A stretch of DNA of 57,902 nt, from the NCBI RefSeq assembly GCF_006861775.1, contig NZ_VDGG01000024.1, positions 1 through 57,902 on the forward strand, in the 5' to 3' direction. Positions within the stretch are counted from its first letter, which is position 1. Each line of letters starts with the position of its first letter. This document shows positions 7,716 to 46,811 of the stretch, piece after piece. The stretch is from Psychrobacillus soli. Lineage in GTDB: Bacteria; Bacillota; Bacilli; Bacillales_A; Planococcaceae. The notes beneath the pieces are model-generated. The model saw only the letters and a program-made list of their open reading frames with translations, did not search any database and had not been told where the DNA came from. Made by a program: the position numbers and the translations under genes.

Positions 7716-7916
7716 ATGGAACAAGGTAAAGTAAAATGGTTTAACTCAGAAAAAGGATTCGGATTCATCGAGCGCGAAGGCGGAGACGACGTATTCGTAC
7801 ACTTCTCAGCTATCCAAAGCGAAGGTTTCAAATCTCTTGACGAAGGTCAAGAAGTAACTTTTGAAATCGAGCAAGGCCAACGTGGTCTTCAAGCTACTAA
7901 CGTAGTTAAAGCTTAA
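7716..7916 (+). CDS. cspD: Cold-shock protein (CspB/CspD type)
   Basis: The 66-residue single cold-shock domain binds single-stranded RNA and DNA and melts structure at low temperature. Both motifs are present: [13 protein letters not shown] (RNP1 region) and DVFVHFSAI (RNP2). The start at 7716 follows GAGGAGG; the longer in-frame reading from 7683 would add residues no csp gene has. A second csp lies at 9204-9407 on the other strand. The choice of cspD rather than cspB rests on position near ypeP/ypeQ. Confidence 0.93.
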
Positions 7917-31407: not shown

Positions 31408-31587
31408 ATGAATATCAAAGCTGGTAAAAGACCTGTTGTTTCTGAACCTGAGCTTTATGCATCTGATAACCAGTTAGTAATAATAAATAAAAAATGTTGT
31501 GATTCACATTTTAAAGTGACCGAACTAGACAAACACCGTTTTATTTACAAAGTGTTTACAAAAAATAAAGTTGCAAATCGCATATAA
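31408..31587 (+). CDS. Small hypothetical protein, 59 residues
   Basis: Start at 31408 (MNIKAGKRPVVSEPELYASD) is supported by AGAGGAAA; the frame also runs from 31366 without a site. A CC pair occurs in NKKCCDSHFKV. No family is recognised. Its end overlaps the ars promoter. Confidence 0.45.
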   Translation: MNIKAGKRPVVSEPELYASDNQLVIINKKCCDSHFKVTELDKHRFIYKVFTKNKVANRI

Positions 31588-31617
31588 GTAGAATATTATA
31601 TAAGCAAATGGTTATAT
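31571..31617 (+). promoter_or_regulatory. ars operon promoter and ArsR operator
   Basis: TTGCAA (31571-31576), a 17-base spacer and TATTAT (31594-31599). Directly overlapping, ATATAA (31598-31603) and TTATAT (31612-31617) form an imperfect palindrome around GCAAATGG, the form typical of ArsR operators. The wider arms CATATAA and TTATATG extend it. Confidence 0.7.
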
Positions 31618-31644: not shown

Positions 31645-31989
31645 ATGGAATTACCATCGATTGATATAGAAAAGGCTGCCACAATATTAAAACTGTTGGG
31701 TGATAAAACAAGGCTAACAATGATTAAAATGCTTGATTCGCATGATTATTGTGTTTGTGAATTTGTTGAAATATTTAAAGTAAGTCAACCTGCTATTAGT
31801 CAACACGTACGTAAATTGAAAGATGCTGGACTAGTGGGGGAAACAAGAAGAGGTCAATGGATTATCTATTCATTGAACAAGAAAAGTGATGTTTTTCCAT
31901 TGGTTCAGAACTTGATGAATCATCTTCCAAATCAAGATTTTAAACTACAAGAATTAGAAGCACAGGGATTACGTATCTCTTGTGATTAA
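31645..31989 (+). CDS. arsR: ArsR arsenite-responsive repressor
   Basis: The 114-residue winged-helix repressor carries the metalloid site CVCEF in the DNA-recognition region, followed by [18 protein letters not shown]. It binds arsenite or antimonite and leaves its operator. GGAGG precedes the ATG. It is the first gene of the eight-gene operon. Confidence 0.93.
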
Positions 31990-32003
31990 AGGAGGTTAGC
32001 ACT

Positions 32004-33299
32004 ATGTCACCAGTCATTTTAGCATCAATAATATTCATAGTAACGCTTATCTTCGTTATATGGCAGCCAAAAGGTTTAAACATCGGTTGGTCTGCATGTG
32101 GGGGAGCAATTATTGCGTTATTAGTAGGAGTTGTCGATTTTAGTGATGTGATAGAGGTAGTAGACATTACTTGGAACGCAACTTTATCCTTTATCGCGAT
32201 TATCTTAATTTCTTTAATTTTAGATGAGATCGGATTATTTGAATGGGCCGCCTTACATATGGCAAAGGCCGCAAAAAGCAATGGTATTAAAATGTTCGTT
32301 TATGTCAGTGTTTTAGGAGCCATTGTTGCTGCCTTTTTCGCTAATGACGGGGCCGCATTAATTTTGACCCCAATTGTCTTAGCGATGGTTCGTAATTTGA
32401 ATTTCAAAGAAAAAATGATCTTTCCGTTTATTATGGCAAGTGGGTTTATTGCGGATACAACTTCACTACCATTTGTCGTTAGTAACCTAGTTAACATTGT
32501 ATCAGCTGATTTCTTCGATATTGGTTTCGTGGAATACGCTTCTAGAATGATTATTCCTAACATATTTTCTCTAGTTGCAACTATTAGCGTTTTGTTATTT
32601 TATTTTAGAAAAAGCATACCAAGAACGTATGATTTATCTAAGCTAAGAGAACCAAAGGAAGCAATTAAGGATATAAAAATGTTCCATTTATCTTGGTATG
32701 TTCTTGCTATATTGGTTGTTGGTTACTTTAGTAGTGAATTCATCAACATTCCTGTTTCCATTGTTGCCGGTATAATAGCTATTTTCTTTATTATAATGGC
32801 AAGAAGAAGTAGTGCTGTCGATACAAGAACAGTTATAAAAGGAGCACCATGGAATATTGTATTTTTCTCAATCGGTATGTATGTTGTTGTTTACGGACTG
32901 GGGAATGCAGGACTTACAAGCGTTTTAGCTGGAGTTATAGAAGTAGCTGCAGAACAAGGGCTATTCGTAGCTACGATGTCGATGGGCTTCATTGCAGCTT
33001 TCCTATCATCCCTAATGAATAACATGCCAACTGTTATGATAGATGCTTTAGCAATTGCAGAAACGAATACTTCCGGTACTATCCGTGAAGCACTTATTTA
33101 TGCCAATGTCATTGGATCTGATTTAGGCCCAAAAATCACACCGATTGGATCACTTGCGACGTTAGTATGGCTTCATGTCTTATCTCAAAAAGGTGTAAAA
33201 ATCTCCTGGGGAACATATTTTAAAACTGGTATTGTCATAACGATTCCTATTCTTTTCATTACACTTCTAGGTCTATATATTTCATTATTATTTTTCTAA
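32004..33299 (+). CDS. arsB: ArsB arsenite efflux permease
   Basis: The 431-residue protein has about twelve membrane helices and belongs to the ArsB/NhaD ion transporter group, including the [16 protein letters not shown] re-entrant motif. It exports arsenite or antimonite, alone or powered by ArsA. GGAGG lies before the ATG, 14 bases after arsR. Confidence 0.93.
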
Positions 33300-33313
33300 A
33301 GGAGAATAAAATT

Positions 33314-34006
33314 ATGGATAAAACATCAATCTATTTTTTATGTACAGGAAATTCATGCAGAAGCCAAATGGCAGAAGGATTTGCCAAAAAATATGTAGGA
33401 AATAATTATGAAGTTCATAGTGCAGGAATTGAAGCTAGAGGAATACACTCATTAGCAATTAAAGTCATGAATGAAAAAGGAATAGATATATCAGGCCAAA
33501 CATCAGATCTAGTGAGCGTAAAATTACTAAACAAAGCTGATATTGTTATTACATTATGTAAAGATGCGATGGAAAGATGTCCAATTTCTTTACCAAGATC
33601 ATCTCATTATCATTGGCCATTTGATGATCCTGCAAAGGTTCAAGGAACTGAAGATCATATTATTAGGAGTTTTAGACAAGTAAGAGATGAAATTGAAACA
33701 ACTATTCAAAAATTCATTACTGGAAACTCCGGTGTGGTTTTTAACTCTAAAGACAATAAATATGATCATCTAATACTCCAAGAAGACTTCGGAGAGCAAA
33801 TAAAGCATCTTCGTGAGTCTAAGGGCTTAAATATAACAGGATTAGCTATTCGCTCTGGTTTATCGGAAGATTATCTTACTAAAACGGAGAAGAATCTTAC
33901 TAATCCTTCAAGATTTTTCATGCATCACTTAGCGAATGCTTTTCAAATGGATTTCGATGAATTAATAAACCATCTTTATACCGATAATAGCAGTAAAGTA
34001 AATTAG
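33314..34006 (+). CDS. Arsenate reductase fused to an XRE-type helix-turn-helix domain
   Basis: Residues 1-135 are a thioredoxin-coupled ArsC of the low-molecular-weight phosphatase fold: CTGNSCRSQ with Cys10 and Cys15, and LCKDAMERC with Cys82 and Cys89, all catalytic cysteines intact. After a linker, about 155-222 form an XRE helix-turn-helix domain ([20 protein letters not shown]). One uninterrupted frame encodes both. The next gene is a normal ArsC, so this one may be a redox-gated regulator or a reductase with an added DNA- or protein-binding role. Confidence 0.9.
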
Positions 34007-34052
34007 ATTATATATACTAATAAAAGCATAGAACAGAGGAGACTACTTAGAA

Positions 34053-34472
34053 ATGACAAAAAAAACTTTATACTTTTTATGTACAGGAAATTCATGCAGA
34101 AGCCAGATGGCAGAGGGTTGGGGAAAAAAATATTTAGGTGATGAGTGGGAAGTTATGAGTGCAGGAATTGAAGCACATGGTTTGAACCCTAATGCTGTTA
34201 AAGCGATGAATGAGGTTGGAGTTGATATTTCTAATCAGACTTCAGATATCATTGATATGGAAACATTAAATAATGCAGATTTTGTAGTTACACTTTGTGG
34301 GGATGCTGCGGATAAATGTCCAATGACACCACCTCATGTGAAACGCGATCATTGGGGCTTTGACGACCCTGCTAAAGCAGAGGGAACTGATGAAGAGAAA
34401 TGGGCTACCTTCCAACGAGTTCGTGATGAAATTGGGCAAAGAATCAAGCATTTTTCTGAAACAGGCGAATGA
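34053..34472 (+). CDS. arsC: Arsenate reductase (thioredoxin type)
   Basis: The 139-residue enzyme reduces arsenate to arsenite using the Cys10-Cys82-Cys89 relay and thioredoxin. It has [11 protein letters not shown] and LCGDAADKC at the same positions as its fused neighbour and about the usual length for the family. AGAGGAG precedes the ATG. Confidence 0.95.
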
Positions 34473-34563
34473 TTTAACATTACCAAGAGAAAATTTTCTC
34501 TTGGTTCTCTTTTCACCAGAATATAAGTATATGCTTATTTGATATTGTAACGGGGGTTTTATC

Positions 34564-34926
34564 ATGAAAAAAGTAGAGATTTATGATCCTGCGATGTGTT
34601 GTTCAACAGGTGTCTGTGGACCAAGTGTGGACCCAGAATTAACAAGAGTAGCTTCGGCTTTGTATTCACTTGAGAAAAAGGGATTTAATATTACACGATA
34701 TCAATTAACCAATAATCCGGATAAATTTGTGGAGAATGATGCAGTAAATAGTGTTTTACATGAAGAAGGAATAGATGCTTTGCCAGTAGTTTTAGTAGAT
34801 GGTCAGATTGTAAAACTTGGTTGTTATCCAACAAACGATGAACTAGCAGAATGGTTTAACGTAGATTTAGAAGAATTAAAAGAAAAGCCAAAAGTTCGAC
34901 TTTCGATTGATTTAAATTCACTTTAA
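34564..34926 (+). CDS. arsD: ArsD metallochaperone
   Basis: The 120-residue protein delivers arsenite to ArsA. The essential cysteines Cys12, Cys13 and Cys18 are present in PAMCCSTGVCGPSVD. No C-terminal vicinal pairs follow. It lies 20 bases upstream of arsA. Confidence 0.95.
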   Translation: MKKVEIYDPAMCCSTGVCGPSVDPELTRVASALYSLEKKGFNITRYQLTNNPDKFVENDAVNSVLHEEGIDALPVVLVDGQIVKLGCYPTNDELAEWFNVDLEELKEKPKVRLSIDLNSL

Positions 34927-34946
34927 AACGGAAAGAAGCGATAAAC

Positions 34947-36716
34947 ATGTTTCAAGCTTTTCAGCCAAAGAATGTAATAAATACCCCGTTTTTGTTTTTG
35001 ACGGGAAAAGGCGGGGTAGGAAAAACGTCCACAGCATGTGCTACAGCTGTGTCATTAGCGGACAATGGAAAGAGGGTTTTGCTAATCAGTACAGATCCTG
35101 CTTCCAACTTACAAGACGTATTTGGTATTGAATTAACTAATAGGCCAAAAGTAGTTCCAAATGTTGAGAATCTACATGCATGTAACTTAGACCCAGAGGC
35201 TTCTGCAAAAGCCTATCGTGAAAAAGTTGTTGGTCCATATAGAGGAAAGCTTCCTGAGTCAGTAGTATCTTCAATGGAAGAACAATTATCAGGTGCTTGT
35301 ACTGTAGAAATAGCCGCATTTGATGAGTTTACAAGCTTGCTTACAAACACAGAAATAGTAAGTCAGTATGATCATATTATTTTTGATACAGCACCAACTG
35401 GCCATACTTTACGACTTTTACAACTTCCAACAGCATGGAATGGGTTCCTAGAGGAGAGTACACATGGAGCATCATGCTTAGGCCCATTATCGGGCTTAGC
35501 AGATAAAAAAGATCTTTATTCCAAAGCAGTAGAGGTTTTAGCTGCCCCAGACAAAACTACATTAATTTTGGTTACAAGACCTGACGTCTCCTCCCTTTTA
35601 GAAGCTGATCGTGCCTCTATAGAACTAAAAGATATCGGGGTTAAAAATCAAATTGTTATTGTAAATGGATTACTTAGCGAATATAACCAGGAGGATGAAG
35701 TATCATCCGCATTTTATCAACGACAAAGAAATGCTTTAAAACAGATGCCAAAAAGCTTAAAACAAGCTATGACATATTCTCTCCCTTTTGTTTCATATTC
35801 CTTGACAGGTATAGAAAACCTTCGTTATTTGTTTAAATTGTACACTTTACCTGCTACGCTATCTAACAACCAAACTGAAACAAATGATCATCTTAATTTA
35901 AAGGATGTTATAGATGACTTTTCCCTCTCGGATACAAAGTTAATCTTCACTATGGGTAAAGGTGGGGTAGGAAAAACAACAGTCGCATCTGCAATTGCAG
36001 TTGGATTAGTTGAAAAAGGACATCGTGTCCACTTAACAACGACAGACCCTGCTGCCCATCTCAATTATCAATTTCAAAGTAGTTTAATGAATCAAAACCT
36101 AAGTATTAGTAGTATTGATCCTAAACAAGAAGTAGAAAAATATAAAGCAGATATTTTATCAAAAGCTAGTAAAGATCTGGACGAAGATGGAATTGCATAC
36201 CTACAAGAAGACCTAAATTCACCTTGTACAGAGGAGATTGCAGTATTTCGTGCTTTTGCAGAAGTAGTAGCAAAAACGGATAACGAAATCGTAATTATCG
36301 ATACAGCACCGACAGGACATACTTTATTGTTATTAGATGCAGCACAGTCGTATAGCAAAGAAATAGAGAAATCTACTGGTGAAGTGCCAAAAAGCGTGGA
36401 AAACCTTCTTCCACTACTTAGAAATCCAAAAGTAACAGAAGTAGTTATCGTAACACTTGCTGAAGCAACTCCAGTATTAGAAGCATCTCGCCTACAAGAA
36501 GACCTTAGAAGAGCAGAAATAAGTCCAAAATGGTGGGTTATTAATCAAAGTTTATATGCAACCAATACGACTGATCCTGTGTTACGAGGTAAAGCAATTG
36601 GGGAATTGGAATGGATTCATGAAGTAAGTGACAATAAGGCGATAAACTGTGCAATAATTCCATGGCTACATGAAGAAAAAGTTGGATATGACAAACTAAA
36701 AGACTTTATTAACTAA
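34947..36716 (+). CDS. arsA: ArsA arsenite-stimulated ATPase
   Basis: The 589-residue protein is two fused homologous halves, each with a GKGGVGKT P-loop (about 20-27 and 336-344) and DTAPTGHTLRLL/DTAPTGHTLLLL transduction motif. The metalloid-site cysteines appear in SGACTVEIAAF and NSPCTEEIAVF. It energises ArsB. Confidence 0.95.
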   Translation: MFQAFQPKNVINTPFLFLTGKGGVGKTSTACATAVSLADNGKRVLLISTDPASNLQDVFGIELTNRPKVVPNVENLHACNLDPEASAKAYREKVVGPYRGKLPESVVSSMEEQLSGACTVEIAAFDEFTSLLTNTEIVSQYDHIIFDTAPTGHTLRLLQLPTAWNGFLEESTHGASCLGPLSGLADKKDLYSKAVEVLAAPDKTTLILVTRPDVSSLLEADRASIELKDIGVKNQIVIVNGLLSEYNQEDEVSSAFYQRQRNALKQMPKSLKQAMTYSLPFVSYSLTGIENLRYLFKLYTLPATLSNNQTETNDHLNLKDVIDDFSLSDTKLIFTMGKGGVGKTTVASAIAVGLVEKGHRVHLTTTDPAAHLNYQFQSSLMNQNLSISSIDPKQEVEKYKADILSKASKDLDEDGIAYLQEDLNSPCTEEIAVFRAFAEVVAKTDNEIVIIDTAPTGHTLLLLDAAQSYSKEIEKSTGEVPKSVENLLPLLRNPKVTEVVIVTLAEATPVLEASRLQEDLRRAEISPKWWVINQSLYATNTTDPVLRGKAIGELEWIHEVSDNKAINCAIIPWLHEEKVGYDKLKDFIN

Positions 36717-36732
36717 TTGGTGGGTGAGTGTA

Positions 36733-37161
36733 ATGACGAATAAGAATTACCATGAATTGATTAAAGATCGTATTTATATCGGTGGTGCAGATGATGTAGA
36801 TGAGGTAATGGAAAATGAAAAAGTGGGTAGAGTATTTGATTTAAGAGCAGAATCATCTAATGTAAACTTTCATGATAAAAGAGTACACAGTCCAATAGTT
36901 GATGATGCAGATCAACAAGACATTTCTATAAAGAGTTCAATTGAACAGGTAGTAAGAGCGTATAATGAAGGAGAAAGTGTTTACTTCCACTGTCAAGGTG
37001 GTAGTAACCGTACTGGCACTGTTGCTATTGGAACATTACTTTCTTTAGGTAAAGCAGACACTATTGAAGAAGCGGAACAAATGGCAAAAATAGTACGGCC
37101 GAAAATTAGCGTAAAACCAGAGATGAAAGAAGCATTGAGAAGAATCTTTCCAAATGCATAA
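36733..37161 (+). CDS. Protein-tyrosine phosphatase-like protein in the ars operon
   Basis: The 142-residue protein carries the CX5R phosphatase loop in HCQGGSNRTG, with Asp in SPIVDDADQQ as a possible general acid. This is a dual-specificity type and not ArsC-like. Its role in arsenic resistance is unknown; it could act on arsenate-modified or phosphate-bearing molecules. I use ATG at 36733 (GGTGGG upstream); GTG at 36724 is possible. Confidence 0.8.
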   Translation: MTNKNYHELIKDRIYIGGADDVDEVMENEKVGRVFDLRAESSNVNFHDKRVHSPIVDDADQQDISIKSSIEQVVRAYNEGESVYFHCQGGSNRTGTVAIGTLLSLGKADTIEEAEQMAKIVRPKISVKPEMKEALRRIFPNA

Positions 37162-37182
37162 AAAACTTTAGGAGGAAGATAA

Positions 37183-37458
37183 ATGAATATTACTGACGGA
37201 GCGAAAAAATTATTAGAAAATGTACTTAGTGAAAAAGGTGCTGAAGCAATTCGCCTTTTTACTAATGCTGGTTGTTGTGGACCACAATTTGCATTGTCTT
37301 TAGATGCACCGCTAGAATCCGATACAATCCAGACTATCAACGGTATTAAACTAGCGATCGATTCGCAAGTTAATAATACAGAAGGTCTAACTCTTGATAT
37401 AGAAGAAAATGACAGAGGTACAGGGCTGGTTCTTATAGGTGGAAGTAGCTGTTGTTAA
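37183..37458 (+). CDS. HesB/IscA-like protein with terminal Cys-Cys
   Basis: This 91-residue protein has the HesB fold (MNITDGAKKLLENVL start, central beta region) with vicinal Cys31-Cys32 in NAGCCGPQF and a C-terminal GGSSCC (Cys90-Cys91). In IscA the C-terminal cysteines bind Fe-S clusters; here the two pairs could instead bind arsenite. It is the last gene of the ars operon, preceded by GGAGG. Confidence 0.8.
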   Translation: MNITDGAKKLLENVLSEKGAEAIRLFTNAGCCGPQFALSLDAPLESDTIQTINGIKLAIDSQVNNTEGLTLDIEENDRGTGLVLIGGSSCC

Positions 37459-37539
37459 TGAAAAGTAACTGAACTCAATAAACAGATTTGTTCAGTACCA
37501 TTATTTTATGAGGTTTAGTGCTATTTGAATTACAAATGA

Positions 37540-37564
37540 ACTCCTCTGGTCACCAGAGGAGTTT
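37540..37564. terminator. Bidirectional terminator of the ars operon and MFS gene
   Basis: AACTCCTCTGG pairs with CCAGAGGAGTT around three bases; short T runs lie on both sides. Confidence 0.75.
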
Positions 37565-38834
37565 ATTGCTTTTCTAGAGCCACATTTGAAATCGAAATTG
37601 ATTTTCCATGTCTTTTATATGAGTTTGACCAAAGAATCGCTAATAATAAAAATATAATTGCTCCTCCCCAGTAAATGTAGGAGAAACCATTTACTAATCC
37701 TATGATCAAGAAACTAATAAATGGACCAATGGATGCCCCAAGATCCTGAGCCATTGAATATGTAGTAATAAATGAAACTACATTTGAGTTCTTTGAAATG
37801 TCTAAGGCAATTGCATCAACTATTGTCGTAAGAGAGGTCGCCGCAATCATGACAAGAAAAGTAAAGAAAATCAATACAAGGATTGGTATTTCATTAGAAA
37901 TGATTCCAAACGTCAAACTTGCAAAAATTAGTGAGATAATTAATACAGGCACTCTTCCTTTGACCCCATCAGACCAAGTTCCAAAACGTACTCCTAAAAA
38001 TGGTCCCCATATCCATTGTAGAGATAAGATAATACCAGTTAGAAAAGTTGCACTGATCACAGTTCCGAACAAGATGACACTTTCTCCATGGTTTTGCTCA
38101 ATTACAGAACTTAATGTTGATATAAATATCCCTTGAAATAATAAAGTGATACAGAAACCAGTAAAAATAATTCTTCCTCTGCCTTGTTTGAGACTGTTTA
38201 TATATGAATTACCTTTAAATATAACCTTCTCCGTATTATCCTGCTCATGATCTTTTAAAGGAGTGGTTTTAACATACAAGAAAATCAAAGGTAGGGCTAA
38301 TAGAGTAAGACTCCCGAAAATAATTGAAATAGTACTTAAACCCAATATTGGTACCAGCAGCCCTCCCGCTAACATGCCTACTAAGCTCCCTAATCGATAT
38401 AGTCCATTGTATAGACCAATTGATTTCCCCCTATTATTTTCTTCCGTATTAAAGGCCACAATCGATAAACCCCCAATTCTCAAAAAGGACCATGCTATAC
38501 CCCATACTCCTCGGAGAATAATCCAAGCTATAAATCCATTTAGTAATCCATAGCCTAATGTCGTAATACTACCTAAAATGATTGCAATTACTAATCCTGT
38601 TTTTAGAGATATTCTACTATATATCCATCCAACAATCGGATTAAAGGGCAGTCGGATAAAGCGGTTAATGGATAGAAGTACTCCAACTTGCCAAATCGAG
38701 TCGAGGCCCACTTCTTTCCAATATAAGGGCAAGGCAATGTATAACATTGAATCCCCGAACAAACTTATTGCAGTAATTAAGGCCACAATGACAATTACAG
38801 ACGGTTTACTTTCACCTTTGCTTGATTCGGACAA
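37563..38834 (-). CDS. MFS transporter
   Basis: The 423-residue protein has twelve predicted helices and an MFS-like NRFIRLPFNPIVGWI loop. The TTG at 38834 is chosen because AGGAG is eight bases upstream; a GTG at 38843 abuts that site. Its substrate is unknown. A copy of the MarR-type operator lies in its upstream region, linking it to the flavoproteins. Efflux of an organoarsenical or thiol adduct is a possibility, not shown. Confidence 0.82.
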   Translation of the reverse strand: MSESSKGESKPSVIVIVALITAISLFGDSMLYIALPLYWKEVGLDSIWQVGVLLSINRFIRLPFNPIVGWIYSRISLKTGLVIAIILGSITTLGYGLLNGFIAWIILRGVWGIAWSFLRIGGLSIVAFNTEENNRGKSIGLYNGLYRLGSLVGMLAGGLLVPILGLSTISIIFGSLTLLALPLIFLYVKTTPLKDHEQDNTEKVIFKGNSYINSLKQGRGRIIFTGFCITLLFQGIFISTLSSVIEQNHGESVILFGTVISATFLTGIILSLQWIWGPFLGVRFGTWSDGVKGRVPVLIISLIFASLTFGIISNEIPILVLIFFTFLVMIAATSLTTIVDAIALDISKNSNVVSFITTYSMAQDLGASIGPFISFLIIGLVNGFSYIYWGGAIIFLLLAILWSNSYKRHGKSISISNVALEKQ

Positions 38835-38901
38835 TACTATCACTCCTAACTCAGTGATGAATTAACTTAAGATTCTATACTTGTAAGGGTATGCTAATTG
38901 A

Positions 38902-38918
38902 TTGTGAATTGCAACTAA
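38902..38918 (-). promoter_or_regulatory. Candidate MarR operator, copy 1 (MFS gene)
   Basis: On the minus strand TTTAGTTGCAATTCACAA, matching the MarR-gene site (copy 4) at 15 of 19 positions on the aligned strand. No clear -10 is placed around it, so its exact effect is open. Confidence 0.55.
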
Positions 38919-39121
38919 ATTTCATGTGGAATTTGAATTTTTTTACTCTCGCTTGTACAATTAACTTGTACGGTATTTGAACAAAAAAATCTCGCTTTCT
39001 TTGAAGAAGTATATAAATAATCACATATAATCTACATTATTATTAATCATTAAATATAAATCCAATAACTCAGTTTGTAGTGAGCACTTATTTTGTAGTC
39101 TTTTTTATACATTAATAATTA

Positions 39122-39150
39122 TTGCGTTTTACAAATAAATAAAGTATAAA
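39122..39150 (+). promoter_or_regulatory. Promoter of the ArsO-like gene with operator copy 2
   Basis: TTGCGT (39122-39127), a 17-base spacer and TATAAA (39145-39150). The -35 starts the operator-like TTGCGTTTTACAAATAAA. The remaining 38919-39121 is AT-rich with no gene. Confidence 0.6.
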
Positions 39151-39246
39151 TGTGTTAAGAGAGAAAATTCTGTCTTATTCAACATCTTATTATTTTCCAA
39201 AATGATGGTAGCTTAAATATTACATATTAGATACTTTTTCTCTGAA

Positions 39247-39268
39247 TTTACTTGCATTTTACAAATAA
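39247..39268 (+). promoter_or_regulatory. Operator copy 3 just before the ArsO-like gene
   Basis: TTTACTTGCATTTTACAAAT, 17 of 18 identical to copy 2 over the TTGC-to-TAAA core. It lies between the promoter and the ribosome site, a roadblock position. Confidence 0.6.
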
Positions 39269-39282
39269 AGGGGGATGTTAGC

Positions 39283-40338
39283 ATGGAAGGGATACTAGAT
39301 ACAATAGTCATTGGAGGGGGGCAGGCAGGCCTTACTTCAGGCTATCACTTACAAAAAAGAGGACTTAGTTTTCTAATATTGGAGGCAAGTGCTCAAGAAG
39401 GGGGTTCTTGGCCACTTTACTACGACAGTCTTAAACTATTCTCACCAGCAGGTTTTTCATCGCTTTCAGGATTAAAATTTCCCGGAGAGCAAAATCGTTA
39501 TCCGAATAGAGATGAAGTAGTTCAGTATTTAAAGGATTATAGAAGACATTTTCGATTGCCAGTTCGCACTAACCATCGCGTTGAGTCAGTTGAAAAGGGT
39601 GGAGAAGGTTTTATTGTTCGTACGATGGAAGGGGATATTTTTCAGGCAAGAACCATCATCAATGCGACCGGCTCGTTTAATAATCCATTCATACCAAGAA
39701 TAGCGGGGCAAGAAGAGTTTAAAGGATTAACACTGCATTCCTCCGAATACAAAAATTCGCAGCGATTTCTCAATCAAAGAGTAGTGGTCGTAGGACGAGG
39801 AAACTCAGCAGTACAAATAGCAGTTGAGTTGTCCCAGGTGAGTCAGACATCATTAGCTGTGCTACGCCCTGTCCAGTTTGTGAAACAACAGATATGGGGT
39901 AAGGATTTGCATTTTTGGATAAAACTAATTGGCTTTGACTCATTTCCATTTTGGAGATTTAGAAAAACTGCACCGAGTTCTAGTGCAGTAAACGATACGG
40001 GTCGATACAAAGAGCGATTAACTGCTGGAAAACCGGATCAACAACCTATGTTTAAATCCTTTTATCAAGATGGGGTTATTTGGACAAACGGGGTAAAAGA
40101 ACAGGTGGATACAATAATCTATGCTACTGGATACAGACCACAATTTCCATATCTTCAAGCGATTGGAGCGTTGGATATTGATGGGAAGCCGTCACATAAA
40201 GCAGGTATAAGCAACATTCCGGGGCTTTACTATGTGGGGGTGGAAGGACAGCGTTCCTTTGCTTCTGCAACTATAAGAGGGGTAGGACCTGACGCACGGT
40301 ATGTAGTGAAAAAATTATTGCATTATCTTAAGTATTGA
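39283..40338 (+). CDS. arsO: ArsO-like flavin-dependent monooxygenase
   Basis: A 351-residue FMO-type flavoprotein has an FAD motif VIGGGQAGLTSGYHL at the start and a second dinucleotide motif VVVGRGNSAVQIA near residue 166, plus the YATGYRPQF C-terminal motif. ArsO proteins occur in ars clusters of several Firmicutes and Actinobacteria with unproven substrates. GGGGG precedes the ATG. Two operator copies sit upstream. Confidence 0.75.
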   Translation: MEGILDTIVIGGGQAGLTSGYHLQKRGLSFLILEASAQEGGSWPLYYDSLKLFSPAGFSSLSGLKFPGEQNRYPNRDEVVQYLKDYRRHFRLPVRTNHRVESVEKGGEGFIVRTMEGDIFQARTIINATGSFNNPFIPRIAGQEEFKGLTLHSSEYKNSQRFLNQRVVVVGRGNSAVQIAVELSQVSQTSLAVLRPVQFVKQQIWGKDLHFWIKLIGFDSFPFWRFRKTAPSSSAVNDTGRYKERLTAGKPDQQPMFKSFYQDGVIWTNGVKEQVDTIIYATGYRPQFPYLQAIGALDIDGKPSHKAGISNIPGLYYVGVEGQRSFASATIRGVGPDARYVVKKLLHYLKY

Positions 40339-40451
40339 ATGTAAATGGCAAAGTGGTCCTTTACGATAAAGATAGTCAACAGTTAGAAAGTGTGCTACTA
40401 GATAAGCCTTACCGATTATGTGGAGGGAGCTGTTGTTTCAAATGTAGCTAA
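40335..40451 (+). CDS. Possible 38-residue cysteine-rich peptide, or fragment
   Basis: An open frame overlapping the arsO-like stop (TTG start, no clear ribosome site) ends LLDKPYRLCGGSCCFKCS. The CxxxCCxxC pattern is like the ends of the HesB-like and flavoprotein genes. It may be translated by coupling or be the C-terminus of a lost gene. Confidence 0.35.
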   Translation: MNVNGKVVLYDKDSQQLESVLLDKPYRLCGGSCCFKCS

Positions 40452-40492
40452 CCCCGTAGAAGTCCCAACTTCATAGATATATTTGATAACAG

Positions 40493-40516
40493 AGGCTGCC
40501 TATTGGGTAGCTTTTT
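40493..40516 (+). terminator. Terminator after the ArsO-like gene
   Basis: AGGCTGCC pairs (with G-T pairs) with GGGTAGCTT around TATT, then TTTTT. Confidence 0.6.
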
Positions 40517-40612
40517 CTAAAAGAACTAACGAAACAGTTAGTTGAATAAGTCGGTTTATTTGGAAGGTCGTCGAAGTAGTTAAGTTCATGTAAAGGTAAA
40601 GGGGAGAAAAAT

Positions 40613-40660
40613 AAACCAAGCATTTCAAACAAATTAGATATTTAAAATGCTTGGTTTTTA
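40613..40660. terminator. Bidirectional terminator at the recombinase 3' end
   Basis: AAACCAAGCATTT pairs with AAATGCTTGGTTT; T runs follow on both strands. The nearby AACTAAC/GTTAGTT dyad (40524-40543) is unexplained. Confidence 0.75.
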
Positions 40661-40665
40661 TAATA

Positions 40666-41229
40666 TTAATCATGTTTATCTTGATTCTCAGTGTGCTCTA
40701 AATAGCGGTACAGTGTTGATTTACTTATTCCTGTTTCATTTTTAATATCAAGCAATGTGAAGTTACCTGAATGATACATGGAAAGAGCTTTTTTTATATT
40801 ATCGTCTGATTTTTTAGGTCGTCCAAGGGACTTACCTTGTTCTTTTGCTTGTGCCAATCCAATAGCAGTAGACTGTTTCACAATATCCGATTGGAATTGT
40901 ATCATATGCATCAAAATATCTTGCATTGAGAATGATAATACTTTATTACTATAAATATTCTCTTTTAGAAAATGAATGGTTACTCCATCTTTTTCACAAA
41001 GCTTCAACGTATCCATTAGATGTCTTGTAGTATCGGCTAATACAAACATACGGTCAACAACGATGGTATCCCCATCTTGTAATGCCATAAGCATTTCTTC
41101 TAGCTGTATACGTTTCTTGGGTGAACCATGTAACTCGCGATAAATGGTATCGCAATGTAAGGGCATGACATTTAATTGATTCTCACAGCTTTCATCATCA
41201 TATAGAGGACGTATATAGCCATAAATCAT
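40666..41229 (-). CDS. Serine-recombinase family protein without the catalytic serine
   Basis: The 187-residue protein has a resolvase domain (MIYGYIRPLYDDESCENQL; GDTIVVDRMFVLADTTRHLM) and a C-terminal helix-turn-helix (LLDIKNETGISKSTLYRYLE). Where active enzymes have RVS the sequence reads RPL, and the second active-site arginine of DRLxR is also missing. It may have become a regulator or structural accessory protein. It is the only mobile-element-type gene in the island. Confidence 0.8.
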   Translation of the reverse strand: MIYGYIRPLYDDESCENQLNVMPLHCDTIYRELHGSPKKRIQLEEMLMALQDGDTIVVDRMFVLADTTRHLMDTLKLCEKDGVTIHFLKENIYSNKVLSFSMQDILMHMIQFQSDIVKQSTAIGLAQAKEQGKSLGRPKKSDDNIKKALSMYHSGNFTLLDIKNETGISKSTLYRYLEHTENQDKHD

Positions 41230-41248
41230 ATTTATCGCTCCTATCTAA

Positions 41249-41274
41249 GTCCTAAAAAGGTTCCTTTTTGGGAC
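41249..41274. repeat. Near-perfect inverted repeat upstream of the recombinase gene
   Basis: GTCCTAAAAAGG (41249-41260) pairs with CCTTTTTGGGAC (41263-41274) with a two-base centre and one G-T pair. It is 20 bases before the recombinase start, the position of an autoregulatory or resolution site. Confidence 0.65.
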
Positions 41275-41325
41275 TATTAGTGATATAGTAATCATAGAAT
41301 TTTAACAACAATAAAGGAGTTTATT

Positions 41326-42759
41326 ATGCAAAAATTAAAACAACAATGGTTTGGCAATATTCGTGGAGATGTGCTAGCAGGTATCGTCGTCGCACTCGCT
41401 TTAATTCCTGAAGCAATTGCCTTTTCAATTATTGCAGGTGTTGACCCAATGGTTGGGTTATACGCATCATTTTGTATTGCTGTCATTATCGCATTTGTTG
41501 GCGGCAGACCGGGAATGATCTCAGCAGCAACGGGTGCGATGGCACTACTTATGATGCCATTGATAAAGGATTATGGTTTGGATTATTTATTAGCAGCAAC
41601 CATATTAACGGGTATTATTCAAATACTTTTTGGTATATTTAAAGTAGCAAAAATTATGAAATTCATTCCAAACGCTGTAATGATTGGTTTTGTGAATGCA
41701 TTAGCAATAATGATCTTTACTTCACAACTAGCCCACTTTATCGGAATTTCGACGATGACATATGTGTTTGTTGCGATTACATTAATTCTATTATACACAT
41801 TACCGAGATTCATTAAAGTAATTCCAGCACCACTGATTGTATTAGTCGTACTAACGAGTGTTGCAATTTTCAGTGGGTTTGATTTACGAACAGTTGGAGA
41901 TTTAGGAGCAATTACGCAAACGCTACCGTCTTTCTTCATACCGGATATTCCATTTAATTTTGAAACATTAAAAATTATTTTTCCCTATTCTTTAGCATTG
42001 GCTATTGTTGGTTTATTAGAGTCGTTACTTACTGCTCAAATCGTAGATGATATGACTGCAACAGAAAGTGATAAAAACAAAGAAGCCCGAGGTCAAGGGA
42101 TTGCGAACTTTATCACAGGGTTCTTCGGTGGAATGGCTGGTTGTGCCATGATAGGGCAATCGGTTATTAATGTGAAGTCTGGTGGGCGTGGGCGTTTGTC
42201 TACACTTGTTGCCGGAGTATTTTTAATGTTTCTTATCATTGTATTAGGTGATTTAGTTGTACAAATTCCAATGCCTGTTTTAGTTGGAATTATGATTATG
42301 GTAAGTATCGGAACATTTGATTGGAATTCTTTTAAATACTTAGTGAAAGCCCCTCGAACAGATGCCATTGTGATGGTGACAACCGTTCTTATTGTCGTGT
42401 ATACACATGACTTATCAAAAGGAGTTCTAGCAGGAGTATTGCTAAGTGCGATTTTCTTCGTTGTAAAGATTTCGACAGTGAAACTTTCGAAAAATGGCAA
42501 TCAAATTGTTGTAAAAGGGCAATTGTTCTTTGCTTCTACCGATAGCTTTATTAACTATTTTAAACAAAATGTTTTTAATGAAAAACAAATTGATATCAAT
42601 TTCTCTAGTAGCCATATTTGGGATGAATCCGCAGTTGGTGCTGTATTCAAAGTAAAAGATTCGTTGCAGGAAAAAGGGATTGAAGTGCAATTAACAGGAC
42701 TAGATGAATCAAGCAAAAAGATGTTAAATCAGTTGGACGGAATATCATCATCTCATTAA
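41326..42759 (+). CDS. SulP-family anion transporter with STAS domain
   Basis: The 477-residue protein has a membrane part of about 10-14 helices ([20 protein letters not shown] signature) and a C-terminal STAS domain (about 385-477). Substrates in this family include sulfate and bicarbonate. AAAGGAG precedes the ATG. A UspA gene follows by 13 bases, a frequent pairing. Confidence 0.88.
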
Positions 42760-42772
42760 GGGAGGAAAAGGA

Positions 42773-43192
42773 ATGTATAAACATATTCTATTAGCGGCAG
42801 ACGGTTCAGAGAATGCAGTGCGTGCTGCAAAAGAGGCAATCAAAATTGCTTCTCTTTCAAAGGAAACGTTAGTTGAAGTTATATATATTGCTGACTTCGA
42901 TAAGGCAAAAACAGATATTCTACATGCTACTTCAACTGAAACATTACCAATTGAACGTCGTAAAAAAATTAAAAATGTGGAGCAAGTCTTATTTGATGCA
43001 AATGTGAATTACAAAGTAACGATTTTACATGGAATACCGGGTCCAGAAATTATAAAATACGCAAATGAAAAAGGTGTAGATTTAGTCGTTATTGGCAGTC
43101 GAGGTTTAAATGGTCTGCAAGAAATGGTGATTGGTAGCGTCAGCCATAAAGTGATGAAACGTGTAAATTGTCCTGCCTTGATTGTGAAATAG
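42773..43192 (+). CDS. Universal stress protein UspA family
   Basis: The 139-residue protein has the UspA fold, with the ATP-binding-type motif GSRGLNGLQEMVIGSVSHKV near the C-terminus. It probably modulates the adjacent SulP transporter or responds to stress; not shown. GGAGG precedes the ATG. Confidence 0.9.
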   Translation: MYKHILLAADGSENAVRAAKEAIKIASLSKETLVEVIYIADFDKAKTDILHATSTETLPIERRKKIKNVEQVLFDANVNYKVTILHGIPGPEIIKYANEKGVDLVVIGSRGLNGLQEMVIGSVSHKVMKRVNCPALIVK

Positions 43193-43269
43193 GCGAATTG
43201 TATGCTCTGACGAATTAAAGAATTGAAATTTTCTTATTTACTACTGGTAGCTACAGTTCAAGAACAGGG

Positions 43270-43293
43270 GGTTGCTTAGGCAGCTCTTTTTTA
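43270..43293 (+). terminator. Terminator after the SulP-UspA operon
   Basis: GGGTTGC pairs with GCAGCTC around TTAG, then six T. Confidence 0.6.
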
Positions 43294-43358
43294 ATTCAGA
43301 TAACTGGTCAAGTTAATTTAAGAAGAACTATTAAAATCAAGAAGTTGAAAGTTAATTG

Positions 43359-43389
43359 TTGCACATTGCAAGTAAATGATGTATATATT
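43359..43389 (+). promoter_or_regulatory. MarR gene promoter with operator copy 4
   Basis: TTGCAC (43359-43364) and TATATA (43382-43387) are 17 bases apart. The operator TTGCACATTGCAAGTAAA (43359-43376) covers the -35, so the MarR protein probably represses its own gene. Confidence 0.65.
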
Positions 43390-43406
43390 ATATAAGAGGT
43401 GAGAAC

Positions 43407-43853
43407 ATGGAAAACAAACGTGAGCTATTTCAAGTACTTACTCGTAGGTTCGGACTCCTTAATAAAAATTGTTGTTCTATTGGAGCCGTGGATATATCAT
43501 CCGTACAAAGTCATATTCTTTACGAAATAGATAAACAAACTTCTCCATCTATGCAACAAGTTGCGGAGTCGATAGCAATGGATATAACGACTTTTAGTCG
43601 ACAAATCCAAACGCTGATTAAAATGGAACTAGTAAAGAAAACACCATCCTCTGCAGACAAAAGGGTATATATATTATCGCTTACAGTACAAGGTAAGTTT
43701 GTAGCTACAACCATTGACGAATCGATGAATGCTTATTTAGAGGAAGTATTCTCGCATATGAACGAATTTGAAAGAGAAACAGTTATTCGTTCGATAAAAT
43801 TACTAAATCAAGCCATGTCCAAATCAAGCGTTTGCTGTACCCCTCTACTTTAA
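43407..43853 (+). CDS. MarR-family regulator with two Cys-Cys pairs
   Basis: The 148-residue winged-helix protein has the typical MarR centre (MQQVAESIAMDITTFSRQIQ, then SSADKRVYILSLT). It has vicinal cysteines at 22-23 (LNKNCCSIG) and 143-144 (SSVCCTPLL), near the N- and C-terminal dimer helices. Such pairs suit sensing of arsenite, disulfide stress or electrophiles. GAGGTGAG precedes the ATG. Operator copies at its own and four other sites make it the likely regulon repressor. Confidence 0.85.
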   Translation: MENKRELFQVLTRRFGLLNKNCCSIGAVDISSVQSHILYEIDKQTSPSMQQVAESIAMDITTFSRQIQTLIKMELVKKTPSSADKRVYILSLTVQGKFVATTIDESMNAYLEEVFSHMNEFERETVIRSIKLLNQAMSKSSVCCTPLL

Positions 43854-43884
43854 GCAAGTTAAGTCTTGCTTAAAAAAATATATA

Positions 43885-43917
43885 TTACTTGCAAAATGCA
43901 ATTAACTAGAATATTAA
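43885..43917 (+). promoter_or_regulatory. Flavoprotein promoter with operator copy 5
   Basis: TTGCAA (43889-43894), 17 bases, TATTAA (43912-43917). The operator TTACTTGCAAAATGCAA (43885-43901) overlaps the -35. Its reverse complement is nearly identical to copy 3. Confidence 0.65.
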
Positions 43918-43955
43918 TACTGGTAATACAACTAAAAATTTTTGGAGGTAAAAGT

Positions 43956-45335
43956 ATGAATAACATTGAACTGAAACAAGTAAAGACTGGTGGATGCTGC
44001 GTACCTGCTACAAAGACAAATACAGATGTTGTAAAATCTACAAACAAGGAGTTACCAATAGCAATTATAGGTGCTGGTCCAGTAGGTTTAGCGGCAGCTG
44101 CCCATCTAGCCAAAATTGGTGTACGTTTTATACTGCTCGAGTCAGGTGAAAGTGTTGGAAGTAATATTCTAAACTGGGGGCATGTGCGGTTATTTTCACC
44201 ATGGCAATACAATATCGATAAGATAGCTAAAAAAACTCTAGAAAAACACGGTTGGAATGCTCCTGATCAAGAACAACTTCCATTAGGAAGTGAATTAGTT
44301 AACGAGTATATGAAGCCATTAGCAAATTTACCTGAAATAAAACCTTATCTATTACTGAATACAAAAGTTGTTTCTATAAGTAAAAAAGGATTAGATAAAA
44401 TGAAGGACGCTAATCGTGAAAAATCCTCTTTTATTTTATACCTTGAACAAAATGGAATGACAAAAAGAGTAGAAGCAAGGGCAGTTATAGATGCTACAGG
44501 AACTTGGTCACAACCAAATCCAATAAATGCTGATAGTGTTTGGACAAAAGAGGAAAGAGAATTAAAACAACACATTTACTATGGCATACCTGATATTAAT
44601 GGAGAGCATAAAGAAAGATACAAAGGCAAACGAGTTGCTGTTGTTGGTGGCGGTCATTCAGCAATTAACACGATATTGGAATTATCGCAGTTAAATGATG
44701 AAGTGGAAATTACTTGGATAATAAGAAAGAGAAGCGTAGAGGATGCTTACGGTGGAGAAGAAAAAGATGCTCTTGAAGCAAGAGGTGCATTAGGTAGCCG
44801 TATACACCAATTAGTTGATGCTGGTAAAGTGAAAGTCTTTACTCCTTTTCTCATTCAACAATTAATTAAGATAAACGATGAAATTGGAATTATAGGACAA
44901 TCAGGCGGTAGAGAAATAACACTATCTCCTGTGGATGAAATTATTGCAAATACAGGTAGCCGTCCAGACTTCTCATATTTACGAGAAATCAGGCTCAGTA
45001 TAGATACTGCTACAGAAAGTGTGGAAGCTCTTGCTCCTTTAATTGACCCAAACCTTCACAGTTGCGGAACAGTTCGACCACATGGTGAAGAAGTTTTAAG
45101 ACAGCCAGAAAAAGACTTCTATATAGTAGGAATGAAAAGTTATGGTAGAGCTCCAACATTCTTAATGGCAACTGGTTATGAACAAGTTAGATCTATTGTG
45201 GCCCATCTGACGGGAGATTTTGAGTCAGCTAAAAAGGTTGAACTTGATCTACCTGAAACCGGTGTTTGCAGTATTAATTTAACTTCACCAAATTCTACTC
45301 CATCTTGTTGCGATACAGAAGCATCTAAATGTTAG
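43956..45335 (+). CDS. FAD-dependent oxidoreductase with Cys-Cys pairs at both ends
   Basis: The 459-residue flavoprotein has an FAD motif IAIIGAGPVGLAAAAHLA near residue 36 and an NAD(P) motif VAVVGGGHSAINTILEL near 227. Cys14-Cys15 lie in TGGCCVPAT ahead of the FAD fold, and Cys451-Cys452 plus Cys459 close the protein (PSCCDTEASKC). Added pairs of this kind in MerA and related enzymes bind soft metals. I start at 43956 (GGAGG upstream); the 30-codon extension is in the operator and promoter. The substrate is unknown. Confidence 0.85.
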   Translation: MNNIELKQVKTGGCCVPATKTNTDVVKSTNKELPIAIIGAGPVGLAAAAHLAKIGVRFILLESGESVGSNILNWGHVRLFSPWQYNIDKIAKKTLEKHGWNAPDQEQLPLGSELVNEYMKPLANLPEIKPYLLLNTKVVSISKKGLDKMKDANREKSSFILYLEQNGMTKRVEARAVIDATGTWSQPNPINADSVWTKEERELKQHIYYGIPDINGEHKERYKGKRVAVVGGGHSAINTILELSQLNDEVEITWIIRKRSVEDAYGGEEKDALEARGALGSRIHQLVDAGKVKVFTPFLIQQLIKINDEIGIIGQSGGREITLSPVDEIIANTGSRPDFSYLREIRLSIDTATESVEALAPLIDPNLHSCGTVRPHGEEVLRQPEKDFYIVGMKSYGRAPTFLMATGYEQVRSIVAHLTGDFESAKKVELDLPETGVCSINLTSPNSTPSCCDTEASKC

Positions 45336-45347
45336 GGGGGAAGTTAC

Positions 45348-45551
45348 TTGACGGTCAATAATGGGGGGAATTTATCAATAGAATATTTTATTTCCTACCT
45401 AAAACTCGTTATGGAAGCAAGGTCCTACTCTCTAGAGGAAGCAAAAACCTTCATGTTTATCAACTTCTTTAAGAAGAATAATGATACTTACGGAAAAGAA
45501 AGTCACATCAAATTTATGCAGGCTATTGAAAGAATAAAAGAAGGTAATTGA
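45348..45551 (+). CDS. Small protein co-transcribed with the flavoprotein
   Basis: A 67-residue helical protein starts with TTG after GGGGGGAAG, 12 bases after the flavoprotein stop. Sequence (SIEYFISYLKLVMEARSYSL...) is unfamiliar and lacks cysteine. The short gap indicates one transcript. Confidence 0.6.
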   Translation: MTVNNGGNLSIEYFISYLKLVMEARSYSLEEAKTFMFINFFKKNNDTYGKESHIKFMQAIERIKEGN

Positions 45552-45613
45552 CCCTGTTCTCTAAAAAGTTAATGTTATTAACACTAAAAGAATCAAATAA
45601 TTTATCAGTAAAT

Positions 45614-45643
45614 AACACCGTTCTAATTTATAGGAACGGTGTT
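45614..45643. other. Hairpin without a T run
   Basis: AACACCGTTC pairs with GAACGGTGTT. No poly-T tract follows on either strand, so it is a weak terminator or another structure. Confidence 0.4.
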
Positions 45644-45645
45644 AA

Positions 45646-45783
45646 AAGCGTCTATTAGAGGAATTTTTACAAAACGAAGCCGAAATTGATATTGAGAAGT
45701 ACATTGTCAATATCCCATCGATGCTCAACTTAAAACTAAATGTACTCCGATCAAAAAATACTCTGCCAAAATGCTTATCTTAA
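45646..45783 (+). pseudogene. C-terminal fragment of an unknown protein at the island edge
   Basis: A 45-codon stop-bounded stretch reads KRLLEEFLQNEAEIDIEKYI and continues VNIPSMLNLKLNVLRSK, without a start codon. It reads like a real protein tail. Not recognised. Confidence 0.3.
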
Positions 45784-45798
45784 AAAACGATGAAATAC

Positions 45799-45830
45799 CC
45801 TCTCATTTAGAGGACATTTTTTGTTATACT
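45799..45830 (+). promoter_or_regulatory. Weak terminator and extended -10 promoter before thyA
   Basis: CCTCT/AGAGG hairpin (45799-45813) with a T run merges into TGTTATACT, an extended -10 at 45822-45830. A -35 is not obvious. Confidence 0.5.
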
Positions 45831-45866
45831 AAAGGGAAGTATAGAAAATGAAAACGAGGTATACAA

Positions 45867-46811
45867 ATGGAACAATATTTAACATTATGTCGACATATTA
45901 TGGAAAATGGTGTGGAAAAAGGAGATCGCACTGGAACGGGAACGAAAAGCGTATTCGGTTATCAAATGCGGTTTGATTTAGCAGAAGGTTTCCCACTACT
46001 TACAACGAAAAAAACTGCCTTTCGATTAGTTGTGAGTGAATTATTATGGTTTATAAAAGGAGATACAAACGTAAAATCACTAATTGAAGCAAATAACCAT
46101 ATTTGGGACGATTGGGCGTTTGAAAAATGGGTAAAAAGTGATGATTACACTGGTCCTGATATGACTGATTTTGGTAGACGTGCAGCGAATGACCCTGTAT
46201 TCAAAGCAATTGTGGACGAGCAAATGGAAATCTTCTGTTCTAAAATTGTAGAAAATGCCCAATTTGCGGCAGATTTTGGCGATTTAGGGCCGGTTTATGG
46301 AAGACAATGGAGATCTTGGCCAGCTAAAAATGGAGAAACAATCGATCAATTGCAAAAAGTAATTGAACAACTGAAGACAAATCCAGATTCCAGAAGACAT
46401 ATTATTACAGCTTGGAATCCTGCAGAAGTAGATGATATGGCTTTACCACCATGCCATGCATTTATGCAGTTTTATGTAGCGAATGGGAAATTGTCTTGTC
46501 AATTGTACCAACGAAGTGCGGATGTTTTTTTAGGCGTACCTTTTAATATTGCTTCTTATGCTTTGTTAACGCATCTCATCGCAAAAGAATGCGATTTAGA
46601 AGTAGGAGAATTTGTACATACACTCGGAGATGCGCATTTATATGCGAATCATATGGAGCAAGTGGAAACTCAGTTAGCACGCACACCGCGGTCATTACCT
46701 ACTTTATCTTTATCAAATGAAAAAGAATCTATCTTTGATTATGAAATAGAGGATATTTCAATAGAAGGATATGATCCACTTCCGGGTATTAAAGCACCTA
46801 TAGCAGTTTAA
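45867..46811 (+). CDS. thyA: Thymidylate synthase
   Basis: The enzyme methylates dUMP using methylene-THF. The 314-residue length is the longer Bacilli type with an insertion near residues 80-150. The catalytic Cys is in [11 protein letters not shown], followed by [18 protein letters not shown]. dfrA follows 19 bases later and recycles the dihydrofolate made here. It marks the right side of the island. Confidence 0.96.

Follow-up and report, generated by a model that had tools for sequence, protein, structure and literature searches.

We report here a dispersed regulon predicted on a stretch of 57,902 nucleotides from Psychrobacillus soli (contig NZ_VDGG01000024.1, positions 1 to 57,902; hereafter the window), in which copies of one 23-bp palindrome lie in front of the genes for a MarR-family regulator, two flavoproteins and an MFS transporter. 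We consider it likely that this regulator represses its own gene together with a dispersed set of arsenical-handling genes and is released by a trivalent arsenical, probably an organic one. The regulon itself, judged from its sites, targets, geometry, conservation and cysteines, is well supported at the level of sequence comparison; binding by MarR, repression, a transcriptional roadblock and the nature of the ligand are what we infer from it.

The operator and its copies in the window

The operator is a palindrome of two 10-bp arms around a 3-bp centre (TTTACTTGCA-N3-TGCAAGTAAA). The initial annotation had described five near-palindromic sites of a shared form; all five are present and are copies of this one palindrome (Table 1). 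Counted at the 20 fixed positions of TTTACTTGCANNNTGCAAGTAAA, the mismatches number 2 in the proximal copy of the ArsO-like gene, 3 in the copy of the second flavoprotein gene (FlvB, our own label), 4 in the marR copy, 6 in the MFS copy and more than 6 in the distal ArsO copy, and the latter two sites are called degenerate for this reason. At these two weak places the copies of relatives are somewhat better (positions 7723 and 7865 of locus L093 and 7601 of L092). A footprint is visible in 8 aligned sequences for the marR operator and in 7 for the FlvB operator. With a scoring matrix built from 55 sites that lie upstream of marR in other genera, the five sites rank 1, 2, 3, 4 and 6 within the window. 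The core TTACTTGCANNNTRCAA with at most 2 mismatches is found 8 times in the window as compared to a mean of 1.59 in shuffled sequence, and no shuffle among 100 gave as many; since both arms of the palindrome can match, these 8 matches amount to five places. An operator-like sequence of 13.9 bits at 23053–23075, inside a Ku gene (named by eye), is probably due to chance.

Exact matches to TTACTTGCANNNTRCAA occur three times in the 4.23-Mb genome (101 contigs), all of them within the window, where they precede the ArsO-like gene, the MarR gene and FlvB. Genome-wide, at most 2 mismatches gave 110 matches against 89 for a reversed-pattern control, and a second pattern gave 137 against 119 per strand. 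Because the counts with 2 mismatches barely exceed the control, the regulon in its own genome is small. Re-scoring by the matrix of the 35 loci returned by the two genome pattern searches, some of which are the same place, gave no site of at least 15 bits outside the window; 15 weaker sites (8–14 bits) were present among them, 11 inside mechanically called open reading frames. The motif is not equally frequent at random positions of the genome, a test proposed with the initial annotation: exact sites are unscattered, and looser matches stay near the control level.

Operator sites and target genes in relatives

The comparison was based on two samples, namely 80 stretches around relatives of this MarR in genomes of the same taxonomic family, most of them orthologues, and 80 named loci, the best 80 of 430 relatives. 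Together with the window these make 161 loci, in 156 of which the encoded MarR is at least 50% identical; 124 of these have distinct MarR DNA. For the 124 loci an operator was counted when a site of at least 15 bits lay within 300 bp upstream of a gene. Such a site precedes MarR in 120/124, ArsO-like genes in 32/34, ArsP-type genes in 14/16, FlvB in 60/74, ArsN1-like acetyltransferase genes in 48/68, MFS genes in 7/11, ArsM in 4/24 and ArsI in 1/15. Genes following an operator gene in the same direction add 11 ArsM, 11 FlvB, 8 ArsN1-like and 3 MFS genes, and one each of ArsO, ArsP and ArsI. The genes lying between the targets in the window are free of it in these loci (resolvase 0/6, SulP 0/5, Usp 0/5). 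The claim that scattered genes share the site across unrelated ones is borne out, with the operator found before MarR, both flavoproteins and the MFS transporter and absent from the intervening three.

By a mismatch criterion (at most 4 of 20 within 300 bp upstream) applied to the 80 stretches and the window, sites were present for 51 of 81 MarR, 34 of 64 FlvB, 14 of 18 ArsO-like and 4 of 7 MFS genes, as compared to 0 of 199 among the upstream regions of genes of eleven other types from these loci. The matrix was further applied to 150 bp upstream in 49 loci with MarR genes outside the training set, mostly from Bacillus-, Geobacillus- and Paenibacillus-type genera. Sites were present before MarR in 47/49, FlvB in 10/11, ArsO-like in 16/17 and ArsP-type genes in 10/13, with ArsC at 0/41, ArsB at 0/24 and ArsR at 2/35, and 60 column-permuted matrices found no site in these loci. 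Sites of at least 18 bits number 162 in 1.53 Mb of relatives' loci, a count that includes the window and the 55 training sites, as compared to 1 in Markov-2 sequence. At the level of whole genomes of the family, a near-perfect palindrome (at most 1 mismatch) is present in 49 of 71 with a MarR orthologue and in 23 of 190 without (Fisher p 1e-18), and the reversed control pattern is present in 13 of 261. Co-occurrence of site and gene in other species, which had been set as a test, was found for the MarR, FlvB, ArsO-like, ArsP-type and MFS families. It could be argued that the sites resemble each other by chance in AT-rich promoters, as the near-control genome-wide count of looser matches would suggest. 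However, the excess over Markov-2 sequence and the empty control upstream regions speak against it, as do the 124-locus counts and the non-training loci, and we give this explanation practically no weight.

Among the 80 named loci the regulator is found in Psychrobacillus, Ureibacillus, Lysinibacillus, Geobacillus, Anoxybacillus, Paenibacillus, Cohnella and others, and strong relatives of it (E ≤1e-40) are present in 70 of 398 genomes sampled evenly across the class. In relatives, ArsM proteins score 355–372 bits (cut-off 263; 4/4 tested pass the NCBIfam profile) and ArsI proteins 161 and 172 bits (cut-off 116; 2/2 tested pass). Two ArsN1a copies that are not divergent from MarR pass NF040503 with 213 and 222 bits (cut-off 170), and ArsP-type genes match Pfam ArsP_1 (PF03773) with 161–174 bits over a cut-off of 32.3 (4/4 tested). 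By these predictions the regulon is wider than the initial annotation had it, taking in ArsP-, ArsM-, ArsI- and ArsN1-type genes elsewhere. Its suggestion of a dispersed regulon under the local, cysteine-bearing MarR gains support from the comparative counts.

Positions of the sites relative to the genes suggest two types of placement. A -10 was accepted when a TATAAT-like box with at least 4 of 6 matches lay 16–18 bp from the -35. In the marR sites the left arm forms the -35 TTGCAA and such a -10 follows in 121/122, and the operator centre lies 39–46 bp upstream of the MarR start in 116/124 loci. ArsN1-like sites have the -10 on the opposite strand in 43/48, and one palindrome can serve both promoters in 41 of the 46 divergent marR/ArsN1-like pairs. 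The same spacing is seen in 15/18 distal ArsO sites and 6/10 MFS sites, and in 2/28 proximal ArsO sites. The 28 proximal sites end 0–6 nt before a loose Shine-Dalgarno motif, and their mean matrix score is as high as that of the marR promoters (26.0 vs 25.6 bits), for which a protein site in the leader, acting as a roadblock, is the simplest reading. It had been proposed earlier that three of the window's copies overlap a -35. The overlap holds, but the count does not: by layout it applies to four of the five, though the -10 of the MFS site is poor, and the remaining copy at 39247 lies directly before the Shine-Dalgarno.

The proximal copies might alternatively work at the RNA level, as hairpins masking the ribosome site, and not as DNA sites, given that the palindrome could fold with a short loop so close to the Shine-Dalgarno-like motif. 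However, they fit the marR-promoter matrix as well as the promoters do, which indicates that their letters are conserved beyond mere pairing, and we regard such hairpins as very improbable. In the mechanism that we propose, a MarR dimer would repress its own gene and the dispersed arsenical genes by binding the 23-bp palindrome. At promoter-type sites, for instance that of marR, the dimer would cover the -35 (TTGCAA, left arm) and the 17-bp spacer, excluding RNA polymerase, and at a divergent ArsN1-like gene the same palindrome would cover the -35 of both promoters. In the leader of the arsO-like gene, the dimer bound before the Shine-Dalgarno would halt polymerase coming from upstream. FlvB and ArsP sites may be of either placement type. 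Among relatives, four operators follow each other at intervals of exactly 30 bp ahead of an ArsP-type gene (L089, 9776–9888), and loci L126 and L127 have operator arrays with steps of 31–33 bp.

The regulator and its probable ligand

The MarR protein matches its Pfam family (Table 1) and no NCBIfam model over cut-off. Among the 124 loci, Cys22 is kept in 121 and Cys23, Cys143 and Cys144 in all 124 each. In its structure model (mean pLDDT 81.9), for which the best PDB fold matches are MarR-family entries, the first cysteine pair is placed where a strand begins, and the second in a tail without secondary structure. We propose that Cys 22/23 and 143/144 take up a trivalent arsenical, most probably an organoarsenical (for instance methylarsenite), and that the loaded repressor then leaves the DNA, so that the flavoproteins and the exporter are expressed. 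We favour an organoarsenical because of the target genes, which are seen mostly in other genomes. Sister MarRs of 38–47% identity (L126–L129) lack the C-terminal cysteine pair in 4/4 and have operator-like copies beyond the 3' end; the neighbours looked at are mostly non-arsenic, with an ArsR-family HTH protein near that of L127. The MarR of L130 (41%) retains a CC motif close to either end and is followed by an ArsP-type gene. Judged by their protein sequences and neighbours, these five loci show a pattern that suits the cysteine model. An inverted repeat, TTTAAGCAAG..CTTGCTTAAA, at 43849–43874 overlaps the MarR stop codon; its arms are identical in 7 aligned sequences and no T-run follows on the + strand.

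The cysteines could also belong to a sensor of thiol redox state or electrophiles in the style of OhrR, MexR or HypR, with targets for thiol stress, and the arsenic islands would then merely carry the module. Besides the two cysteine pairs, it may be noted that both flavoproteins score, below cut-off, against YpdA and thioredoxin-reductase models, that the first PDB match of the FlvB model is YpdA, but with a TM of 0.32, and that MexR is among the fold matches of MarR. Diamide has been reported to release ArsR from DNA in Paracoccus (PMC9137774), so arsenic regulators can respond to oxidants. However, an arsenic-linked gene (FlvB and ArsO counted) is located within 6 kb in 121 of the 124 loci, and 93 have ArsM, ArsI, ArsP or an ArsN1-like gene within that distance. 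An arsenite methyltransferase and an enzyme of the ArsI family are among the targets, and the sole OhrR model listed (NF052638) gives the regulator 20.7 bits against a cut-off of 200. A redox sensor therefore seems unlikely to us.

Several observations weigh against a repressor of arsenical genes that is released by an organoarsenical. The loci, selected for the similarity of their MarR, are related to each other, so that the 124-locus counts are not independent, and the genome-level palindrome test is noisy because the near-perfect palindromes of one genus (g16) are located away from MarR. Four MarR and 14 FlvB genes have no site above 15 bits; ten of these FlvB genes come from a single genus group, nine of the ten at 8.6–12.9 bits. 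Counting sites and operon links together, the operator reaches 2/15 ArsI and 15/24 ArsM genes. The acetyltransferases divergent from MarR score 131–152 bits, below the cut-off of 170 for ArsN1a NF040503 (5/5 tested), and are called ArsN1-like. The ArsP-type genes fit a broad Pfam family, with SaoE and SO_0444 Cu/Zn efflux as their best NCBIfam models, below cut-off, and the arsenic efflux NCBIfam model matched once (20.1 bits, cut-off 100). As regards the promoters, FlvB and ArsP sites are without a fixed -10 (21/60 and 3/17), and other single offsets match a -10 in up to 36/122 marR sites. A consensus promoter scan of 37400–45900 showed no enrichment (32 vs 32.3), so the promoter calls rest on shared geometry. 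In its own genome the single ArsP_1 gene lies on another contig without an operator, and a profile search of that genome found no ArsM or ArsN1 over cut-off. Inorganic ars genes are present within 6 kb in 73 of the 124 loci, which would also fit an inorganic ligand.

These last observations, a nearby inorganic system and a window genome whose target set is without ArsM and ArsN1, would be expected if MarR sensed inorganic arsenite or antimonite like ArsR and added a second layer of genes. Vicinal cysteines generally bind As(III), which also counts for this possibility, and it overlaps our preferred explanation, in which more than one form of arsenic is allowed for. However, of the 254 inorganic genes of the 124 loci (ArsR, ArsB, two ArsC types, ArsD, ArsA and Acr3), 2 have the operator, both of them ArsR genes that lie divergently to MarR, and this near-absence points to a separate signal. 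Published work moreover ties the target families shared among the loci to organoarsenicals: ArsM, ArsI, ArsN, ArsO and ArsV are linked to organic arsenicals (PMC9144182), ArsP and ArsK have been associated with the efflux of organoarsenicals in trivalent form (PMC12607644), and ArsN1 has been connected with arsinothricin, an antibiotic (PMC6465285). An inorganic ligand is a substantial possibility, although the less probable one.

Among known systems, E. coli MarR shares with the regulator described here the MarR family and, in marO, the half-site ATTACTTGC; K-12 DNA upstream of marR reads AATTACTTGCCAGGGCAACTAATG. E. coli MarR autoregulates, as we propose here. In contrast to marO, the present operator has one extra base between its arms, with the centre A-N3-T in place of CNNG, and the matrix yields no site in marO (best score -11.4 bits). 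The targets here are arsenic genes and the regulator has two cysteine pairs. ArsR/SmtB repressors, which include methylarsenite-selective ones, likewise regulate arsenic genes with cysteines as likely ligands. The present MarR differs from them in family, operator and gene set, and HTH_5 is not among its Pfam matches; an ArsR-type protein is encoded in the same island (31645–31989, by profile). The zinc-sensing ZitR/AdcR proteins represent a metal-responsive MarR branch, and ZitR is the first fold match of the modelled MarR (TM 0.59), but the AdcR-family model NF038251 gives it 32.9 bits against a cut-off of 175. The ArsO-like product shares its domain with ArsO NF040505 over nearly the full length; scoring below cut-off, it appears to represent a divergent branch, here under a putative MarR operator.

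Target and neighbouring genes, and their significance

Table 1. Operators, target genes and neighbouring genes of the window.
Feature	Position	Strand	Details
ars cluster: ArsR, ArsB-type, two ArsC-type, ArsD, ArsA, dual-specificity phosphatase (DSP), HesB-like	31645..37458	+	ArsR and ArsD by profile, DSP and HesB-like by Pfam, rest by eye from open reading frames
MFS transporter, 426 aa	37563..38843	-	GTG start at 38843; Pfam MFS_1 117.4 bits
MFS-gene operator, degenerate	38897..38919	-	16.0 bits; -10-like TACCCT poor
ArsO-like gene, distal operator	39117..39139	+	11.8 bits, weak alone; TTGCGT 39122-39127, 17-bp spacer, TATAAA 39145-39150
ArsO-like gene, proximal operator	39247..39269	+	26.6 bits, best of the window; ends directly before GGGGG Shine-Dalgarno 39270-39274
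ArsO-like flavin monooxygenase, 351 aa	39283..40338	+	NCBIfam ArsO NF040505 282.9 bits, below cut-off 425
Resolvase	40666-41229	-	intervening gene without operator
SulP permease	41326-42759	+	intervening gene without operator
Usp (universal stress protein)	42773-43192	+	intervening gene without operator
marR operator	43354..43376	+	21.3 bits; -35 TTGCAC 43359-43364, 17-bp spacer, -10 TATATA 43382-43387
MarR-family regulator, 148 aa	43407..43853	+	Cys pairs 22/23 and 143/144; Pfam PF01047 37.4 bits, cut-off 24.6
FlvB operator	43884..43906	+	23.6 bits; TTGCAA 43889-43894, TATTAA 43912-43917
FlvB, NAD(P)/FAD-type oxidoreductase, 459 aa	43956..45335	+	Pyr_redox_3 73.9 bits

In FlvB, Cys14/15, Cys370, Cys438 and Cys451/452 are conserved in 54–64 of 64 sequences, and generic names are found among the homologues listed. 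Its structure model is weak (pLDDT 65.6, with PDB matches at a TM of about 0.3), and a fold assignment finer than NAD(P)/FAD flavoprotein was dropped on this account. A small open reading frame lies downstream of FlvB, at about 45350. Naming the MFS transporter as a particular arsenic exporter was likewise given up, since no NCBIfam model matched it over cut-off. The resolvase, SulP and Usp trio recurs beside MarR in four further loci (L069, L073, L096 and L118).

The ars cluster apparently lies outside the control of this operator, as judged from its upstream DNA, where the best operator-like score nearby is 9.3 bits, from a weak sequence at 31566–31588 upstream of the ArsR gene. Within the cluster, the gene at 33314–34006 encodes a 230-aa ArsC-type protein with an extra C-terminal part (about residues 140–230) that by eye resembles an XRE-type helix-turn-helix; the product is possibly a fusion of ArsC and a regulator. 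At 36724–37458, ArsA is followed by genes for a dual-specificity phosphatase-like protein and a HesB-like CC protein, as it is in several relatives.

Arsenic operons are usually described as ArsR-controlled. Among the open-licence literature matches listed, none describes a MarR-type arsenic regulator with this gene set. One review calls ArsN and ArsO poorly understood and states that arsP, arsJ and arsK were undetected in the ars operons of Bacillus species (PMC12607644). We put forward tentatively, as a proposal somewhat short of an even prospect, that this MarR clade is a dedicated, Bacilli-wide sensor of organoarsenicals (methylarsenite or reduced arsinothricin), that its regulon is separate from the inorganic operon of ArsR, that some targets are locked twice, by promoter site and leader roadblock, and that FlvB is an unnamed arsenic flavoenzyme.

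If this is true, a second regulator family with an operator of its own would explain how organic and inorganic arsenic are handled separately. It would suggest a function for a flavoprotein family that bears only generic names among the homologues listed, and the role of ArsO-type enzymes would become approachable through what induces them. The pair of operator and regulator could also serve as a biosensor for organoarsenicals.

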